DNA from: Luteithermobacter gelatinilyticus
GTDB taxonomy: Bacteria > Pseudomonadota > Alphaproteobacteria > Sphingomonadales > Emcibacteraceae
NCBI RefSeq assembly: GCF_005849285.1
Contig: NZ_CP040517.1
Span: forward strand, 2,114,501 to 2,178,500
Direction of reading: 5' to 3'
DNA: 64,000 nucleotides
Of this stretch, positions 4,378 to 34,985 are shown in pieces; the stretch's first letter is position 1, and each line of letters begins with the position of its first letter. A program made the position numbers and the translations under genes. The notes beneath the pieces were generated by a model. That model was not told where the DNA came from. It searched no databases and saw only the letters and a program-made list of their open reading frames with translations.

Positions 4378-4405
4378 TTGACTTGAACTAAGGTTGCCTT
4401 ATCTA
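4378..4405 (+). promoter_or_regulatory. Likely ahpC promoter
   Basis: TTGACT (4378-4383) and TATCTA (4400-4405) are spaced 16 bases apart, upstream of the peroxiredoxin gene. The Fur-family-like palindrome at 4406-4420 directly follows and would cover the transcription start. Confidence 0.5.
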
Positions 4406-4420
4406 TTAGAATAATTCTAA
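4406..4420. promoter_or_regulatory. ICE/Irr- or PerR-like palindromic operator
   Basis: TTAGAATAATTCTAA is a perfect 15-bp palindrome (odd centre). In context, ATTAGAA-TAA-TTCTAAA matches the alphaproteobacterial iron control element TTTAGAA-N3-TTCTAAA at 13 of 14 specified positions. It also resembles a PerR box. Its position at the expected transcription start of ahpC suggests repression by a Fur-family regulator. Confidence 0.6.
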
Positions 4421-4462
4421 AACAAACCATCAACTGAAAATTCCCTTACATGGAGGTCACTT

Positions 4463-5068
4463 ATGGCATCATTAATTGGTCAGAAAGCCCCTGATTTCAC
4501 CGCCGCAGCCGTCATGGAAAATGACGAGATTGTGGAAAACTTCACGCTCTCCGAATATCTCAAAGGCAGCTACGGCCTGATATTTTTCTATCCGCTTGAC
4601 TTCACCTTCGTTTGTCCGTCAGAAATTATCGCCTTCAGCAACCGCATGGACAAATTCGCCGAACTCAACACCAAAGTGGTTGGAATCAGTGTTGATTCTC
4701 AGTTCTCACACTATGCTTGGCGCAACACACCGCCGGAAAAAGGCGGTCTGGGCAAAATCAAATTCCCGTTGGTGGCCGACATTACCAAGAAAATCGCCAG
4801 CGACTATGGTGTGCTGATTGAAGATGCCGGTGTCGCGCTGCGCGGCAGCTTCCTGATCGACAAGGAAGGCAATATCCGTCATTATGTCATCAATGACCTG
4901 CCGCTGGGCCGCAATGTGGACGAAAGCATCCGTATGGTCGAAGCCCTGCAATTCCATGAACAGCATGGTGAGGTATGCCCGGCCGGCTGGCAGAAAGGCA
5001 AATCCGGCATGAAACCGGATGCCGAGGGCGTGGCCAGCTATCTGGCGGAGAATGCCGAAGGACTTTGA
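4463..5068 (+). CDS. ahpC: Peroxiredoxin, alkyl hydroperoxide reductase C
   Basis: A 201-residue typical 2-Cys peroxiredoxin that reduces H2O2, organic peroxides and peroxynitrite in the cytoplasm. The peroxidatic Cys lies in FYPLDFTFVCPSEI near residue 50 and the resolving Cys in HGEVCPAGW near residue 172, both in family positions. An excellent ribosome site (TGGAGG) precedes the ATG. A terminator follows closely, so it is a single-gene unit. No AhpF or thioredoxin-type reductase is next to it, so the electron donor is encoded elsewhere. A Fur-family-type palindrome overlaps its promoter region, which fits iron- or peroxide-responsive control. Confidence 0.93.
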   Translation: MASLIGQKAPDFTAAAVMENDEIVENFTLSEYLKGSYGLIFFYPLDFTFVCPSEIIAFSNRMDKFAELNTKVVGISVDSQFSHYAWRNTPPEKGGLGKIKFPLVADITKKIASDYGVLIEDAGVALRGSFLIDKEGNIRHYVINDLPLGRNVDESIRMVEALQFHEQHGEVCPAGWQKGKSGMKPDAEGVASYLAENAEGL

Positions 5069-5220: not shown

Positions 5221-6105
5221 ATGGATTGGGACAAACTCAGAATATTTCATACCGTGGCTTCCTCAGGAAGTTTCACCCATGCGGGTGAAAAACTGAATCT
5301 CAGCCAGTCCGCCGTCAGCCGGCAGATCCGGGCCTTGGAAGAAAGCCTGAATGTTTCTCTTTTTAACCGGCACGCCCGAGGCTTAAGCCTGACCGACGAA
5401 GGCGAAACCCTGTTCAGAACCGCCGAAGAGGTGGTGGACAAAATCCATTTTACGGAACAATTGCTCCTTGAAGGCACTGATGTGCCGCGCGGCGAACTCA
5501 GGATTTCCACGACTCAGAGTTTTGGCTCCACCTGGATGATGAACCATATTCGCGGATTTATCGACCGGTATCCGGAAATCAGCGTTCAGCTTATTGTCTC
5601 CGATTACGACCTGGACCTGACCACTCGCGAAGCCGATGTGGCCATTCGATTCCACCCGGCAGAACATCTGGACATGGTACAGAAAAAGCTGGGAATCTTT
5701 CATCACCATCTTTATGCTTCCCCGGAATATTTAAGCCGCAAGGGCCGTCCGGAAACTGTGCAGGATCTGGATCATCATGATCTGATTTCCTATGGCGACC
5801 TGCCCATCATTCCCGTTAAAAATATTGACTGGGCCCTGACCATAGGTGCCGAAGCGCCCCGACAGCCGGTGCTCAGAATCAACAGCATCTATGGTGTGCT
5901 CCAGGCCGTAAAGGCCGGCACCGGCATCGCCGCCCTGCCCGACTATCTGGTTCAGGGCTCCATGAATGTTATGCGTATTCTGGAAGATGTTGAAGGGCCG
6001 AACTTCGCCGCCTATCTCATTTATACCCAGGAACTGAGAAATTCGAAACGCATCACCGCCTTCCGGGATTATCTGGTTGAACAATTCAAAAGCTCCCGCT
6101 TTTAG
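5221..6105 (+). CDS. LysR-family transcriptional regulator
   Basis: About 294 residues. An N-terminal winged helix-turn-helix (residues 1-60, LSQSAVSRQIRALEESL) is followed by a two-lobed effector domain (residues about 90-290) of periplasmic-binding-protein fold. ATG 5221 is preceded by GGGGTG; a TTG at 5209 would add four residues. It follows ahpC, but the sequence lacks the redox-active Cys pair arrangement of OxyR, so it should not be called OxyR on position alone. The target and co-inducer are unknown. Its TAG stop is formed by TA plus the first G of a palindromic repeat, so the repeat is inserted exactly in the stop codon. Confidence 0.85.
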   Translation: MDWDKLRIFHTVASSGSFTHAGEKLNLSQSAVSRQIRALEESLNVSLFNRHARGLSLTDEGETLFRTAEEVVDKIHFTEQLLLEGTDVPRGELRISTTQSFGSTWMMNHIRGFIDRYPEISVQLIVSDYDLDLTTREADVAIRFHPAEHLDMVQKKLGIFHHHLYASPEYLSRKGRPETVQDLDHHDLISYGDLPIIPVKNIDWALTIGAEAPRQPVLRINSIYGVLQAVKAGTGIAALPDYLVQGSMNVMRILEDVEGPNFAAYLIYTQELRNSKRITAFRDYLVEQFKSSRF

Positions 6106-6146
6106 AGTGAATTGTGAATAGGTTGACCCATTCACAATTCACTCTA
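6103..6146. repeat. Short TA-flanked palindromic element in a LysR stop codon
   Basis: A 40-bp palindrome (6105-6144) starts GAGTGAATTGTGAATAGG, ends ATTCACAATTCACTC, and is flanked by TA on both sides (6103-6104 and 6145-6146). Removing it together with the adjacent insertion sequence restores TTTTAGACC, an intact stop codon for the LysR gene. The structure is that of a very short MITE/REP-like element with TA target duplication. Confidence 0.75.
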
Positions 6147-6572
6147 GGTTACCGACTCATAAAACCGCATCCATATTTTGATGGCGGCGAGTTTGACGAG
6201 GGCGAGATAGTTTTCGGCATGTTTTTCGAAGCGCGTGGCGATGGCCCGGAAGTGCTTGAGTTTGTTGAAAAAGCGCTCGACGAGGTTGCGATATCGGTAG
6301 AGGAAGGTGCTGAATGCGGGCTTGGACTTGCGATGCGCCAATGGCCTGATGCAGGCCCATCCGCCCTGATCGGCGAGCCGTTGGCGCAAGGCGTCCGAGT
6401 CGTAGGCCCGGTCGGCCAACAGGATTTGTCCTTTGCCAATGACGCCCAGCATATCCTCGGCCGCGCGCCCGTCGTGCGCCTGTCCAGGCGTCAGCTTGAG
6501 CCCGACGGGCAGTCCATTGGCGTCCACCAGGGCATGGATCTTGGTCGTCAGACCGCCTCTCGAGCGCCCCAC
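6144..6572 (-). CDS. IS5-family transposase, C-terminal frame (OrfB)
   Basis: The downstream half of the DDE transposase: GRSRGGLTTKIHALVD, the second Asp in LADRAYDSDALR and the Glu in NLVERFFNKLKHFRAIATR. It is translated as a fusion with OrfA through a -1 frameshift. Its TAG stop codon (6144-6146 on the minus strand) lies outside the element and is supplied by the flanking target sequence CTAG, so the element itself carries no stop. Confidence 0.85.
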   Translation of the reverse strand: MGRSRGGLTTKIHALVDANGLPVGLKLTPGQAHDGRAAEDMLGVIGKGQILLADRAYDSDALRQRLADQGGWACIRPLAHRKSKPAFSTFLYRYRNLVERFFNKLKHFRAIATRFEKHAENYLALVKLAAIKIWMRFYESVT

Positions 6573-7024
6573 GCATCGGGCGTCAGCGGAACTTCCGGGG
6601 CTGGCATCGGGCCCCCCTTTTTTGCGTTCGCCCCATGCTGGTGAACGCGGATGGATGAGGAGTCGATCATTTGCAGATCGCCGTCATAAGCGGCCGATAT
6701 CGCCGCAAAAATCCTGTCCCACACCCCCTGTTTCCGCCACCGCACAAAGCGATTGTAGCAGGTCGTCGCAGGGCCATAGCGCTCCGGAATGTCCGCCCAC
6801 GGCGAGCCCGTCCTGAGCCGCCAGTAAATGCCGTTGAGCACCCGACGGTCATCCACTCGCGGAACACCCCGCGGCTTGTTCGGCAACAGTGGCTCAATGA
6901 TCGACCATTCAAAGTCAGTCAGTTCATAACGACGACGCGACATCCGTCAACCCTCCTTGTTCAAACTGAACCAAGAGAATCAGATGTCGCCAAATCTCGC
7001 TAGCCCCTTTATGAGTTTATGACC
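6147..7024 (-). mobile_element. Complete IS5-family (IS427-like) insertion sequence
   Basis: About 878 bp between imperfect 17-bp inverted ends (GGTTACCGACTCATAAA and GGTCATAAACTCATAAA, 13 of 17 identical) and flanked by TA, with CTAG contexts at both junctions. It carries two overlapping reading frames of a DDE transposase. It is inserted exactly at the TA flank of the palindromic repeat at 6103-6146. The ends and the frames look intact, so the copy may be functional. Confidence 0.85.
6548..6943 (-). CDS. IS5-family transposase, N-terminal frame (OrfA)
   Basis: 131 residues containing the IS4/IS5 N-terminal helical domain (LTDFEWSIIEPLLP, RVLNGIYWRLRTGSPW) and the first catalytic Asp in QMIDSSSIRVHQHG. 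The frame contains a slippery A6G6 run in the minus strand near 6619-6630. A -1 shift there continues as KKGGPDASPGSSADARCV and then GRSRGGLTTKIHA, which is the normal IS427-group sequence. The active transposase is therefore probably a fusion made by programmed frameshifting. Confidence 0.85.
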   Translation of the reverse strand: MSRRRYELTDFEWSIIEPLLPNKPRGVPRVDDRRVLNGIYWRLRTGSPWADIPERYGPATTCYNRFVRWRKQGVWDRIFAAISAAYDGDLQMIDSSSIRVHQHGANAKKGGPMPAPEVPLTPDAWGAREAV

Positions 7025-8194: not shown

Positions 8195-8662
8195 TTATCC
8201 CAGCAGAGACCGCAACATCCAGGCGTTTTTCTCGGAAACCTCCATCCGGTCGCCAAGCAGGCCCAAAGAGGGTTCATCACCGGCTTCATCCACAATCGGT
8301 ACAATTTCCCGGGCGGTTTTCACCACTGCCTCGTTGGCTTGCACCAAATTACGAATCATGTCTTCGGCCAACGGAATGCCGTCATCTTCCGGAATCCGGG
8401 TCAAGGCAGCAAATTCCTTATACGTGCCCGGGGCATATTCCCCAAGCGCCCTGATCCGCTCAGCAATCACATCAATGGCATTCCAGAGCTCGGTATATTG
8501 TTCTTCAAACTGAACATGCAGGGTCTGGAACATAGGACCCGTCACATTCCAGTGATAATTATGGGTTTTCAGATACAAGGTGTAGGTATCGGCGAGGAGT
8601 CGACTGAGGCCCTTGGCAATTTCCATCCGGGTTTTTTCTTCCATACCAATATCAATCTTCAT
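8195..8662 (-). CDS. dps: Dps-family ferritin-like DNA-protection protein
   Basis: 155 residues, the usual Dps size. The dinuclear iron site signature is present: [17 protein letters not shown] near residue 32, then [21 protein letters not shown], giving the inter-subunit His/His/Asp-Glu set. The dodecamer oxidises Fe(II) with H2O2, stores iron and protects DNA. ATG 8662 is chosen because GGAGAT lies just upstream; an upstream in-frame start at 8683 would add seven residues and lacks such a site. An ICE-like palindrome lies about 45 bases upstream, matching the one at ahpC, so iron/peroxide control is likely. A terminator follows. Confidence 0.9.
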
Positions 8663-8706: not shown

Positions 8707-8723
8707 TTTAGAATACTTCTAGT
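8707..8723. promoter_or_regulatory. ICE/Irr-like palindrome upstream of dps
   Basis: TTTAGAA-TAC-TTCTAGT matches TTTAGAA-N3-TTCTAAA at 12 of 14 specified positions. It is 45 bases upstream of the dps start, in the promoter zone. The remaining stretch to 8953 shows no further gene. Confidence 0.55.
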
Positions 8724-24835: not shown

Positions 24836-24967
24836 GAGCACTTTCTCCTTATAAATTTTTACTGCATAAATCTCTGCTGAGATGCTGTTTATCTCTTTTT
24901 TCCCGGAAAATCCAGTTTCCTGCGTCACGTCTTATAACCGCTATCTTCTTATAATTACTTATGGTAT

Positions 24968-24982
24968 TAAGAAGCATTCTTA
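24968..24982. promoter_or_regulatory. ICE/Irr-like palindrome upstream of bfd
   Basis: TAAGAA-GCA-TTCTTA, perfect six-base arms, overlapping the region just upstream of the bfd promoter. It matches TTTAGAA-N3-TTCTAAA at 11 of 14 positions. It is the third such site in the window after ahpC and dps. Confidence 0.5.
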
Positions 24983-24988
24983 TTTTTG

Positions 24989-25018
24989 TTGACAATCATT
25001 ATTAATTTCATATATATT
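24989..25018 (+). promoter_or_regulatory. Likely bfd promoter
   Basis: TTGACA (24989-24994) and TATATT (25013-25018) with an 18-base spacer. The spacer region ACAATCATTATTAATTT also looks partly Fur-box-like. Confidence 0.5.
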
Positions 25019-25070: not shown

Positions 25071-25319
25071 ATGCCTCACGGATCCGAACCCGCGGAAACA
25101 GAGGCCCGAAAGAACAGCAGGGAGCAGGTTAAGGTGTATATCTGTATTTGCAACGGTTTGAATGAAAATGCAGTCCGGGAAGCCGCGCGCAATACCACCC
25201 CGGAAACCAATGTTATTGACCTGTACAAATCCATGGGGGTCAAACCGCAGTGCGGTCTGTGCCTGTGTGAAGCGGAAAATGTCTGTCAAAACGAAAGACA
25301 GGCCGCCTCAGCCGGATAA
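25071..25319 (+). CDS. bfd: Bacterioferritin-associated ferredoxin
   Basis: 82 residues. The [2Fe-2S] ligands show the Bfd spacing: YICICNGLNE (Cys-x-Cys) and then KPQCGLCLCE (Cys-x2-Cys) about 32 residues later. Bfd reduces the core of bacterioferritin so that stored iron can leave; the bfr gene lies 134 bases downstream. ATG 25071 has AGAGGA ten bases upstream; in-frame TTG/GTG codons at 25029/25032 would add an unconserved leader. The C-terminus is short and lacks other domains. An ICE-like site and a promoter lie upstream. Confidence 0.9.
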   Translation: MPHGSEPAETEARKNSREQVKVYICICNGLNENAVREAARNTTPETNVIDLYKSMGVKPQCGLCLCEAENVCQNERQAASAG

Positions 25320-25391
25320 CGTCAGGCTGACGTAACGAAGATTAAGAACGTTACTTATTATCACAATCAAAATCCTTTTAAAATCAATACG

Positions 25392-25420
25392 TTGACATAA
25401 CCCTCCCCGGAATGTATCCT
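25392..25420 (+). promoter_or_regulatory. Likely bfr promoter
   Basis: TTGACA (25392-25397), 17-base spacer, TATCCT (25415-25420). This is a near-consensus housekeeping promoter located in the bfd-bfr gap, so bfr can be transcribed on its own. Confidence 0.65.
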
Positions 25421-25444
25421 GATCTTAAATCTTCAGGATCAGGA
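25417..25444 (+). promoter_or_regulatory. 5' leader hairpin covering the bfr ribosome site
   Basis: TCCTGATC (25417-25424) pairs with GATCAGGA (25437-25444), which includes part of the AGGAG ribosome site of bfr. An alternative, shorter pairing CCTGA/TCAGG (25418-25422 with 25433-25437) would leave that site free. The leader may be included in the transcript only if transcription starts at or before 25417. Confidence 0.35.
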
Positions 25445-25453
25445 GCATTAGCT

Positions 25454-25933
25454 ATGAAGGGTGATAAAAAAATAATTGAGTATCTGAACAAGATACTCAA
25501 AAACGAACTCACAGCCATTAATCAGTATTTTCTTCACAGCCGCATGTTTGGAGATTGGGGGCTCAAGGCGCTGGAAAAGCATGAATATGATGAGTCCATC
25601 GACGAGATGAAACATGCCGATGAGCTGGTCAAACGCATCCTGTTCCTTGAGGGGTTACCCAATCTGCAAAGCCTCAATCGCCTGCGCATCGGTGAAAATG
25701 TGCGAGAAATGCTGGAAGGGGATCTCAAGCTTGAACTTGAGGCCACAAAAGACCTGCGCGAAGCCATCGCCTATTGCGAAGACATCCGGGATTATGTCAG
25801 TCGCGACCTTTTGGAAGACATTCTGGAATCAGAAGAAGAACATATTGACTGGCTGGAAACCAATCTGTCCCTGATCGACAAGGTCGGCGAACAGAATTAC
25901 CTCCAATCCATGATGGGCGACACGGACGATTAG
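25454..25933 (+). CDS. bfr: Bacterioferritin
   Basis: 159 residues, standard length. The ferroxidase ligands are at the expected places: Glu in [18 protein letters not shown] (about residue 18), Glu and His in [21 protein letters not shown] (about 51 and 54) with the heme-ligand Met between them, Glu in [14 protein letters not shown] (about 94), and Glu/His in [11 protein letters not shown] (about 127 and 130). It forms a 24-mer heme-containing iron store released through Bfd, encoded just upstream. ATG 25454 is preceded by AGGAG. Its TAG stop consists of TA plus the first G of a palindromic repeat. Confidence 0.95.
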
Positions 25934-34574: not shown

Positions 34575-34985
34575 TTACGATTTGATCTTCGTGCCATACA
34601 GCTCCAGGCGATGATCCACCAGTTTATATCCCAGTCGCTTGGCAATCGCATCCTGCAGAGCTTCGATCTCCTCGTCATTGAATTCGATGACTTCTCCGGA
34701 TTCGATATCAATCAGATGGTCATGATGTTCCTCAGAGACCGGTTCATACCGGGAACGGCCATCCCGAAAATCGTGGCGTTCAAGGATACCTGCTTCTTCA
34801 AATAACCTTACGGTGCGATAAACGGTCGCAATGCTGATATGAGGGTCGATATTGGTGGACCGACGATAGACTTCTTCAACATCAGGATGATCATCAGCTT
34901 CCGAAAGAACCCGTGCGATAACCCTGCGCTGTTCCGTCATGCGCATACCCTTGTCGATACAGATTTTCTCAATTTCCGAAGTCAT
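34575..34985 (-). CDS. fur: Fur-family metalloregulator
   Basis: 136 residues. The winged helix occupies residues 1-80 (MTEQRRVIARVLSEADDHPD, ISIATVYRTVRLFEEAGILE) and the metal-binding dimer domain follows (RYEPVSEEHHDHLIDIESG). No CxxC structural zinc motifs are seen, as in many alphaproteobacterial Fur/Mur proteins. It senses iron or manganese and represses uptake genes. It is located between rimI and plsC in the order usual for this class. Whether it, or an Irr protein elsewhere, binds the ICE-like sites in this window is open. Confidence 0.9.
   Translation of the reverse strand: MTSEIEKICIDKGMRMTEQRRVIARVLSEADDHPDVEEVYRRSTNIDPHISIATVYRTVRLFEEAGILERHDFRDGRSRYEPVSEEHHDHLIDIESGEVIEFNDEEIEALQDAIAKRLGYKLVDHRLELYGTKIKS

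Follow-up and report, generated by a model that had tools for sequence, protein, structure and literature searches.

The DNA analysed here, called the window throughout (64 kb, C1:2114501-2178500, of a genome that consists of one contig of 3.15 Mb), contains three similar palindromes next to genes of peroxide defence and iron storage, and raises the question of whether they belong to one regulon or to several. A preliminary description had assigned all three to the iron control element (ICE) TTTAGAA-N3-TTCTAAA, upstream of ahpC, dps and bfd-bfr, and had predicted a single regulon. With this ICE as the reference palindrome for box scans, the three sites were found where they had been described, at 4405-4421, 8707-8723 and 24967-24983, with 1, 2 and 3 mismatches, respectively, and they are the only sites with up to 3 mismatches across the 64 kb. 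The ICE assignment stands for the first two; the third, with its 3 mismatches, falls into the Fur-type class. The window palindromes are thus probably parts of two different switches, Irr-type at 4405 and 8707 and Fur-type at 24967.

The number of palindromes is not above chance, with at least three matches in 15 of 100 shuffles (mean 1.37), and was dropped as a source of significance. Among 300 simulated Markov sequences, 22% reached the three sites observed with up to 3 mismatches, one reached the two with up to 2 mismatches, and none reached the single site with up to 1 mismatch. In the 3.15-Mb genome the ICE is not enriched at up to 3 mismatches (82 forward matches versus 183 of the reversed control). 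With 77 of the 82 matches listed, eight of the next-best sites by an early matrix gave no further convincing target, and one upstream of a TonB-receptor-like gene resembles the Fur type. Only two sites in the genome have up to 1 mismatch, the one at the peroxiredoxin gene and another at C1:2976250, upstream of a MarR-type gene and cydAB. The latter (C1:2976250-2976266, L344) is near a second palindrome, TTTCAGAAATTTCTGAAA, maybe an operator of the MarR-type regulator itself; the cyd names were given by eye.

The locus of the first palindrome is organized as follows.

4378-4412, plus strand: candidate promoter with TTGACT at 4378, from a by-eye alignment with TTGACT/TTGACG of relatives (consensus matches only)
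4405-4421, plus strand: candidate Irr/PerR-type operator of the peroxiredoxin gene, ATTAGAATAATTCTAAA, 1 mismatch, conserved in relatives
4463-5068, plus strand: 2-Cys peroxiredoxin of the Prx1/PrxC type by family models, earlier called ahpC
5221-6105, plus strand: LysR-family regulator, not OxyR (best models YafC/GcvA, below their cut-offs; no cysteine)

For the gene at 4463 the top model is PrxC (273.9 bits, cut-off 301); the AhpC equivalog gives 155.2, far short of its cut-off of 272. The earlier name is corrected accordingly; an ahpD gene and another AhpC-like gene adjoin oxyR at C1:1362344. The candidate operator overlaps the -10/start region of the peroxiredoxin gene, for which a promoter scanner proposes the alternative TTGAAC-18-TAGAAT at 4383-4412, again a consensus match only. 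Read by eye, the box covers the -10/start region in most genomes of family f1 and lies between the -35 and -10 elements in f4. The LysR gene also adjoins the peroxiredoxin gene in some relatives that have neither box nor irr. An insertion-sequence-like stretch (6144-6943) separates the LysR gene from the HAD-dps block; it includes the N-terminal domain of an IS4/5-type transposase (PF13340, 6548-6943), followed by an open frame with no Pfam match.

The second palindrome is found at dps.

8195-8662, minus strand: dps (ferritin-like, Dps; Dps models below cut-off, Pfam Ferritin)
8707-8723, minus strand: candidate Irr/PerR-type operator of dps, ACTAGAAGTATTCTAAA (minus strand), 61 bp upstream of the dps start

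A search for Fur-family proteins in the genome (E <= 0.001) returned three, an Irr, a Fur-type and a Zur-type protein, and no PerR. The irr gene, which the preliminary description had suggested looking for, is present outside the window (C1:314592-315008), and its product exceeds the cut-offs of both NCBIfam Irr models (NF045678, 211.9 bits, cut-off 150; NF045677, 190.5 bits, cut-off 170). The same protein fails the PerR models, with 65.9 of the 250 bits required for PerRB, 63.5 of 200 for PerRA and 51.9 of 180 for PerR. The Zur-type protein reaches 124 bits (cut-off 167), and its gene adjoins an ABC-ATPase gene that by eye resembles znuC. The OxyR of the genome (C1:1362344) is 49% identical to E. 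coli OxyR and scores 326.1 bits, just under the cut-off of 329. The Fur-type protein is encoded in the window.

34575-34985, minus strand: Fur-type protein, Fur or Mur (best model ferric uptake regulator, 109.6 bits, cut-off 146)

In an alignment of 36 Irr proteins, including the one of this genome, His39, His93, His95, Asp106 and the recognition-helix residue Asn63 occur in all 36 sequences and Asp87 in 35. The aligned parts of these proteins contain no Cys-Pro heme regulatory motif, and the Irr of this genome has no cysteine, and hence no structural CxxC site. At the recognition-helix position the Fur and Zur proteins of the genome have Arg. Excerpts of PMC8638967 give Asn versus Arg in the recognition helix as the mark that separates PerR from Fur, and Asp versus Glu as the one that separates PerR and Irr from Fur, and an excerpt of PMC4700492 matches such positions of the B. 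japonicum Irr to the iron ligands of PerR. By this correspondence, we infer that His39, Asp87, His93, His95 and Asp106 are the equivalents of the PerR iron ligands, Asp106 standing at the PerR-104 position. The Glu of the genome's own Fur at the Asp/Glu mark is read from a stretch where the alignment is imperfect. Parent 2013, as cited in PMC8638967, reportedly linked the Asp at this mark to the sensitivity of PerR and Fur to H2O2. The Asn of Irr and the Arg of Fur and Zur agree with boxes of the TTA..TAA type for Irr and of the TGA..TCA type for Fur. Autoregulation of irr through an ICE box was dropped as a possibility; the upstream regions of 10 irr genes scanned (of 27) all have at least 3 mismatches, and none has a box with up to 2.

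The distribution of the box was compared with that of irr in 40 genomes, this one included, of which 18 have the peroxiredoxin; the loci of near relatives include Emcibacteraceae, Kordiimonadaceae and Sphingomonadales. Genomes were counted as irr-positive when they matched the Irr of this genome with E <= 2e-49, the remaining genomes having matches of 2e-13 or weaker. A box with up to 2 mismatches lies 51-64 bp upstream of the peroxiredoxin gene in 12 of 13 irr-positive genomes (this one included) and in 0 of 5 irr-negative ones; the exception, G004, has 4 mismatches. Eleven genomes were added (Tepidicaulis, Parvibaculaceae, Phaeomarinobacter, Sneathiellales and others; 19 of 80 loci taken, with the duplicates G043 = G030 and G050 = G024 removed), which brings the count to 19 of 21 irr-positive versus 0 of 8 irr-negative genomes, the latter including G048 and G052 (1.9 and 1.5 Mb), which are possibly incomplete. 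The added boxes are at -57 to -130, a second irr-positive exception is the Magnetospirillum G056, with 6 mismatches, and G044 and G045 are near-identical at the locus. Six rows that are small, lack a Fur-family match or belong to other classes or phyla were set aside from this count. G040, G049 and G055 have no box. G046 has one, together with Fur and Zur but no Irr match in its 1.5 Mb, and so do G053, with no Fur-family match, and the spirochaete G058.

Fur-grade matches are present in 38 of the 40 genomes. The box-bearing G038, G041 and G051 have no Fur match, only Irr and a Zur-like score (G038 is 88% complete). The predicted combination of ICE/PerR-like boxes at peroxiredoxin and dps genes with an irr gene in the genome is borne out, and presence of the box tracks irr in relatives. 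The peroxiredoxin tree shows only 2 changes of irr and 4 of the box, and a single independent pair is well supported, so that the Fisher p value of 1e-5 for irr and box overstates independence; because of these few independent changes, the relation is an association and not a proof.

For dps, 12 loci from 11 genomes were scanned, and boxes were found at -52 to -73. The box of this genome (G000) scores 16.8, and those of G001, G002, G038 and G026 score 22.2, 23.7, 25.2 and 23.2, respectively; the boxes of G001, G002 and G038, stronger than that of this genome, lie at -52 to -56. A weak box in G032 (14.0) is within the same -52 to -73 range. A clear dps box is missing from three of the nine irr-positive genomes with dps (G011, G022 and G035); none was found in the irr-negative G033 or in one copy of the irr-negative G030, whose other copy scores 14.6 at -93, versus 16.8 for the dps box of this genome. 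The latter is the weaker of the two putative Irr-type sites, and its assignment rests on its 2 mismatches, its position and its relatives. The dps box of G038 contains TTATAATAATTATAA, near-identical to the PerR consensus.

The third palindrome belongs to a different arrangement, upstream of bfd-bfr.

24968-24982, plus strand: the weaker of two halves, on the upstream side, of a tandem box of the Fur type (the earlier third palindrome), 3 mismatches to TGANAATNATTNTCA
24989-25018, plus strand: bfd promoter TTGACA-18-TATATT, a consensus match only, with 11 of the 12 bases agreeing
24990-25004, plus strand: main Fur-type box TGACAATCATTATTA, 1 mismatch to TGANAATNATTNTCA
25134-25319, plus strand: bfd, bacterioferritin-associated ferredoxin (40 bits, cut-off 75)
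25454-25933, plus strand: bfr, bacterioferritin (TIGR00754, 256.1 bits, cut-off 125.55)

The main box is 22 bp from the weaker half and overlaps the -35 element TTGACA. Under the peroxiredoxin matrix, the 24967 site has a background-like score of 8.4. Of 27 bfr loci, 24 were scanned, and a recognisable bfd precedes bfr in 17; up to 2 mismatches to TGANAATNATTNTCA were found upstream of bfd in 16 of these 17, that of this genome included, with a second Fur-type element 22 bp away in nine. Three of the bfd loci are irr-negative, with a perfect Fur-type box in G030, 1 mismatch in G034 and no box in G028. A regulon of three members fails because the bfd site is half of a Fur-type box that is present also in the absence of irr, and bfd-bfr was ruled out as its third member; the predicted union of peroxide defence with iron storage does not hold except through Dps. 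The bfd site, but neither the 4405 nor the 8707 box, probably belongs to the Fur-type protein encoded at 34575. An ArsC-family gene (PF03960, 24488-24835), divergent from bfd-bfr (25134-25933), shares with it the intergenic region in which the Fur-type boxes lie.

A strict pattern, TTANAAYNATTCTAA, was derived from peroxiredoxin boxes. It matches 20 of the 27 irr-positive genomes and 0 of the 13 irr-negative ones, of which its reversed control matches 3. The matches comprise 40 distinct sites, 8 of them being the very peroxiredoxin boxes used to define it. Among the other 32, 15 are upstream of peroxide or thiol-redox genes, some of them between divergent genes, where the partner could be the target. 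The peroxide classes are Prx5-like (4 sites), 1-Cys peroxiredoxin (1), katG (3) and yaaA (2), and the redox classes are dihydrolipoyl-dehydrogenase-like reductase (3), trxB (1) and pntA (1). These names come from one representative per class run on family models, the rest being assigned by likeness. The representatives of 1-Cys peroxiredoxin, YaaA, dihydrolipoyl-dehydrogenase-like reductase, PntA and TrxB are over a cut-off; the katG piece is a fragment under its cut-off, and the Prx5-like protein matches only Pfam Redoxin. No peroxide link was seen for 17 of the 40 sites, which by names given by eye include three inside sucC-like genes, several terminator-like sites, two before pepP-like genes and the MarR-cydAB site. 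No iron-uptake, iron-storage or heme-synthesis gene was recognised among the 40 sites, judged by eye apart from the class representatives. A looser pattern, TTANAAYNATTATAA, occurs about as often as its control and matches irr-negative genomes as well, and most of the contexts examined, for part of its sites, have no peroxide gene.

Among the predicted targets of the box, katG allows a comparison with another regulator. The OxyR regulon of other bacteria includes ahpC, katG and dps. By the cut set for this analysis (E < 1e-50 to the E. coli OxyR query), OxyR is present in 12 of the 13 irr-negative genomes versus 13 of the 27 irr-positive ones (the match in G004 holds a stop); in the other 14 irr-positive genomes the query finds at best weaker LysR relatives (E 8e-29 to 7e-25), and four of these genomes, G016, G020, G022 and G038, are 74-88% complete. 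The katG sample comprises 21 loci from 18 genomes among the 40. The 350 bp upstream of each matched part, a stretch that at several loci takes in some of the coding sequence, were scored with a matrix made from 17 peroxiredoxin sites and none from katG. The katG genes of the OxyR-less, irr-positive G005, G006, G019 and G032 have boxes with scores of 24.6-26.5, each reached by 0 of 300 resampled upstream sequences, whereas none of the 17 loci of OxyR-positive genomes exceeds 10.2 (Fisher test over loci, p 1.7e-4). Seven of the 14 OxyR-positive genomes with katG lack irr; within irr-positive genomes the box is present at 4 of 4 loci without OxyR and at 0 of 8 with it. G006, G019 and G032, three of these four positives, came from the pattern search that suggested the test, while G005 and the negatives are new. 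The box undergoes 4 changes on the katG tree, and the 3 well-supported independent pairs all agree, which is suggestive, with too few pairs for significance. katG seems to stand under either OxyR or an Irr-type box. OxyR itself adjoins ahpD and an AhpC-like gene in this genome, G001 and G026 (only those of this genome were run against models), katG in G002 and G013, and dps-katG in G011. In the last case (L272), oxyR, dps and katG are side by side and dps has no clear Irr box; this dps is perhaps an OxyR-run counterpart of the putatively Irr-run dps of relatives.

On these sequence comparisons we consider it probable that 4405-4421 and 8707-8723 are operators of an Irr repressor, that the Irr regulon is here a peroxide regulon, and that the bfd palindrome belongs to another operator, a tandem one for Fur. 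The assignment to Irr is favoured because the box tracks irr, and by the strict pattern, the split of katG between box and OxyR, and the conservation of PerR-type ligands. The location of the box over or between the promoter elements of peroxiredoxin and dps suits Irr as a repressor. Irr would bind both sites and repress peroxiredoxin and dps; peroxide would inactivate it, most likely by oxidation at the PerR-like His/Asp iron site, with heme or iron plenty perhaps acting as a second inactivating signal, and peroxiredoxin and Dps would then rise. Irr would also hold katG where OxyR is missing, and in Emcibacteraceae and neighbours the Irr regulon would be a peroxide regulon. We put forward more tentatively, as a possibility, that Irr is a true equivalent of PerR, a peroxide-sensing repressor with peroxide defence instead of iron as its regulon, and that it repeatedly captured katG in OxyR-less lineages of this group.

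Other owners of the boxes were considered. Fur, PerR and Irr boxes share an AATnATT core, the bfd site is of the Fur type and Fur-grade matches are nearly general (38 of 40 genomes), so that the Fur at 34575, or Zur, might bind all three palindromes. The prx1 box of this genome and the dps and katG boxes examined in relatives, however, fit the TTA...TAA type perfectly and deviate from TGA...TCA at 2 positions, and the dps box of this genome has 2 and 4 mismatches, respectively; moreover, the 5 irr-negative genomes with peroxiredoxin have Fur but no box, and G038, G041 and G051 have the box without a Fur match. This ownership is very improbable, and by box type, Fur without box and box without Fur it was dropped for 4405 and 8707. 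Even less credit is due to regulation of the peroxiredoxin gene through the 4405 palindrome by the adjacent LysR protein (5221-6105) or by OxyR. LysR proteins often control adjacent genes, the LysR gene is near the peroxiredoxin gene in 12 of the 33 loci scanned, most of which extend only 1.5 kb to either side, and this genome does have OxyR. Yet the LysR neighbour is also found in box-less, irr-negative genomes (L036, L039 and L134), for which the adjacent LysR was dropped; the LysR protein has no cysteine, the box elsewhere precedes katG, yaaA and other genes, and the OxyR-less G003, G006, G023, G032 and G038 keep it. OxyR is a thiol-based LysR protein with another kind of operator.

A closer alternative concerns the signal. 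Irr may own the boxes and answer only to heme or iron, as in rhizobia, with no peroxide sensing; peroxiredoxin and dps would then be repressed when iron is scarce and released when heme is plentiful. This is the known action of Irr according to an excerpt of PMC7762939, and the conserved HxH, with no Cys-Pro motif seen, would permit a non-degraded Irr like that of R. leguminosarum. Peroxide genes are, however, common among the 40 strict sites, where no iron or heme gene was recognised, and the box is on katG where OxyR is absent. A sensor of heme and iron only is therefore unlikely, although we give it some weight.

The proposed peroxide regulon of Irr resembles the Irr/ICE regulon of Alphaproteobacteria in that the regulator passes the Irr models and the operators are 1-2 mismatches from TTTAGAA-N3-TTCTAAA. 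It differs in its predicted targets (peroxiredoxins, katG, yaaA, dps and redox reductases in place of genes for heme and iron), in the absence of an ICE upstream of irr (10 scanned) and of a Cys-Pro motif in the aligned parts, and in the Fur-type box before bfd. Irr, ICE boxes and peroxide-resistant irr mutants are already known. Excerpts of PMC3413700 link Irr to peroxide resistance, irr mutants being peroxide-resistant, and report that Rhodobacter sphaeroides Irr binds mbfA and ccpA, not katE, so that the link has been explained indirectly. PMC7762939, in excerpt, describes the classic Irr as a sensor of heme and iron, and PMC10374146 gives seven Irr-bound genes from Brucella DAP-seq and makes no mention of ahpC, catalase or peroxi. 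Among the top titles of literature searches, no report of Irr boxes at prx1, katG or yaaA, or of an exchange of OxyR and Irr on katG, was found; an earlier prediction is possible. Iron ligands and the recognition-helix Asn are shared with the PerR regulators of Bacillus and others (excerpts of PMC4700492 and PMC8638967), whereas the regulator here belongs to the Irr family, has no cysteine or CxxC and is far under the PerR cut-offs. The Fur box of iron genes is of the kind found at bfd, and the 4405 and 8707 boxes are not; the OxyR regulon differs in that 14 of the 27 irr-positive genomes have no OxyR-grade match. The PerR regulon of Bacillus and others comprises the same kind of genes as the predicted Irr targets. 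If the more tentative possibility, of Irr as a PerR equivalent, is true, two unrelated peroxide sensors trade places on katG. An Irr box directly on peroxiredoxins, and on katG without OxyR, would make the change from an iron/heme sensor to a peroxide sensor testable and, in the same lineage, the rewiring of peroxide regulons upon loss of OxyR.

One-mismatch boxes also occur upstream of the peroxiredoxin genes of a 'Betaproteobacteria' MAG for which no Fur-family match was found (L133) and of a spirochaete with one Fur-family match (L186); these are perhaps PerR-type operators.
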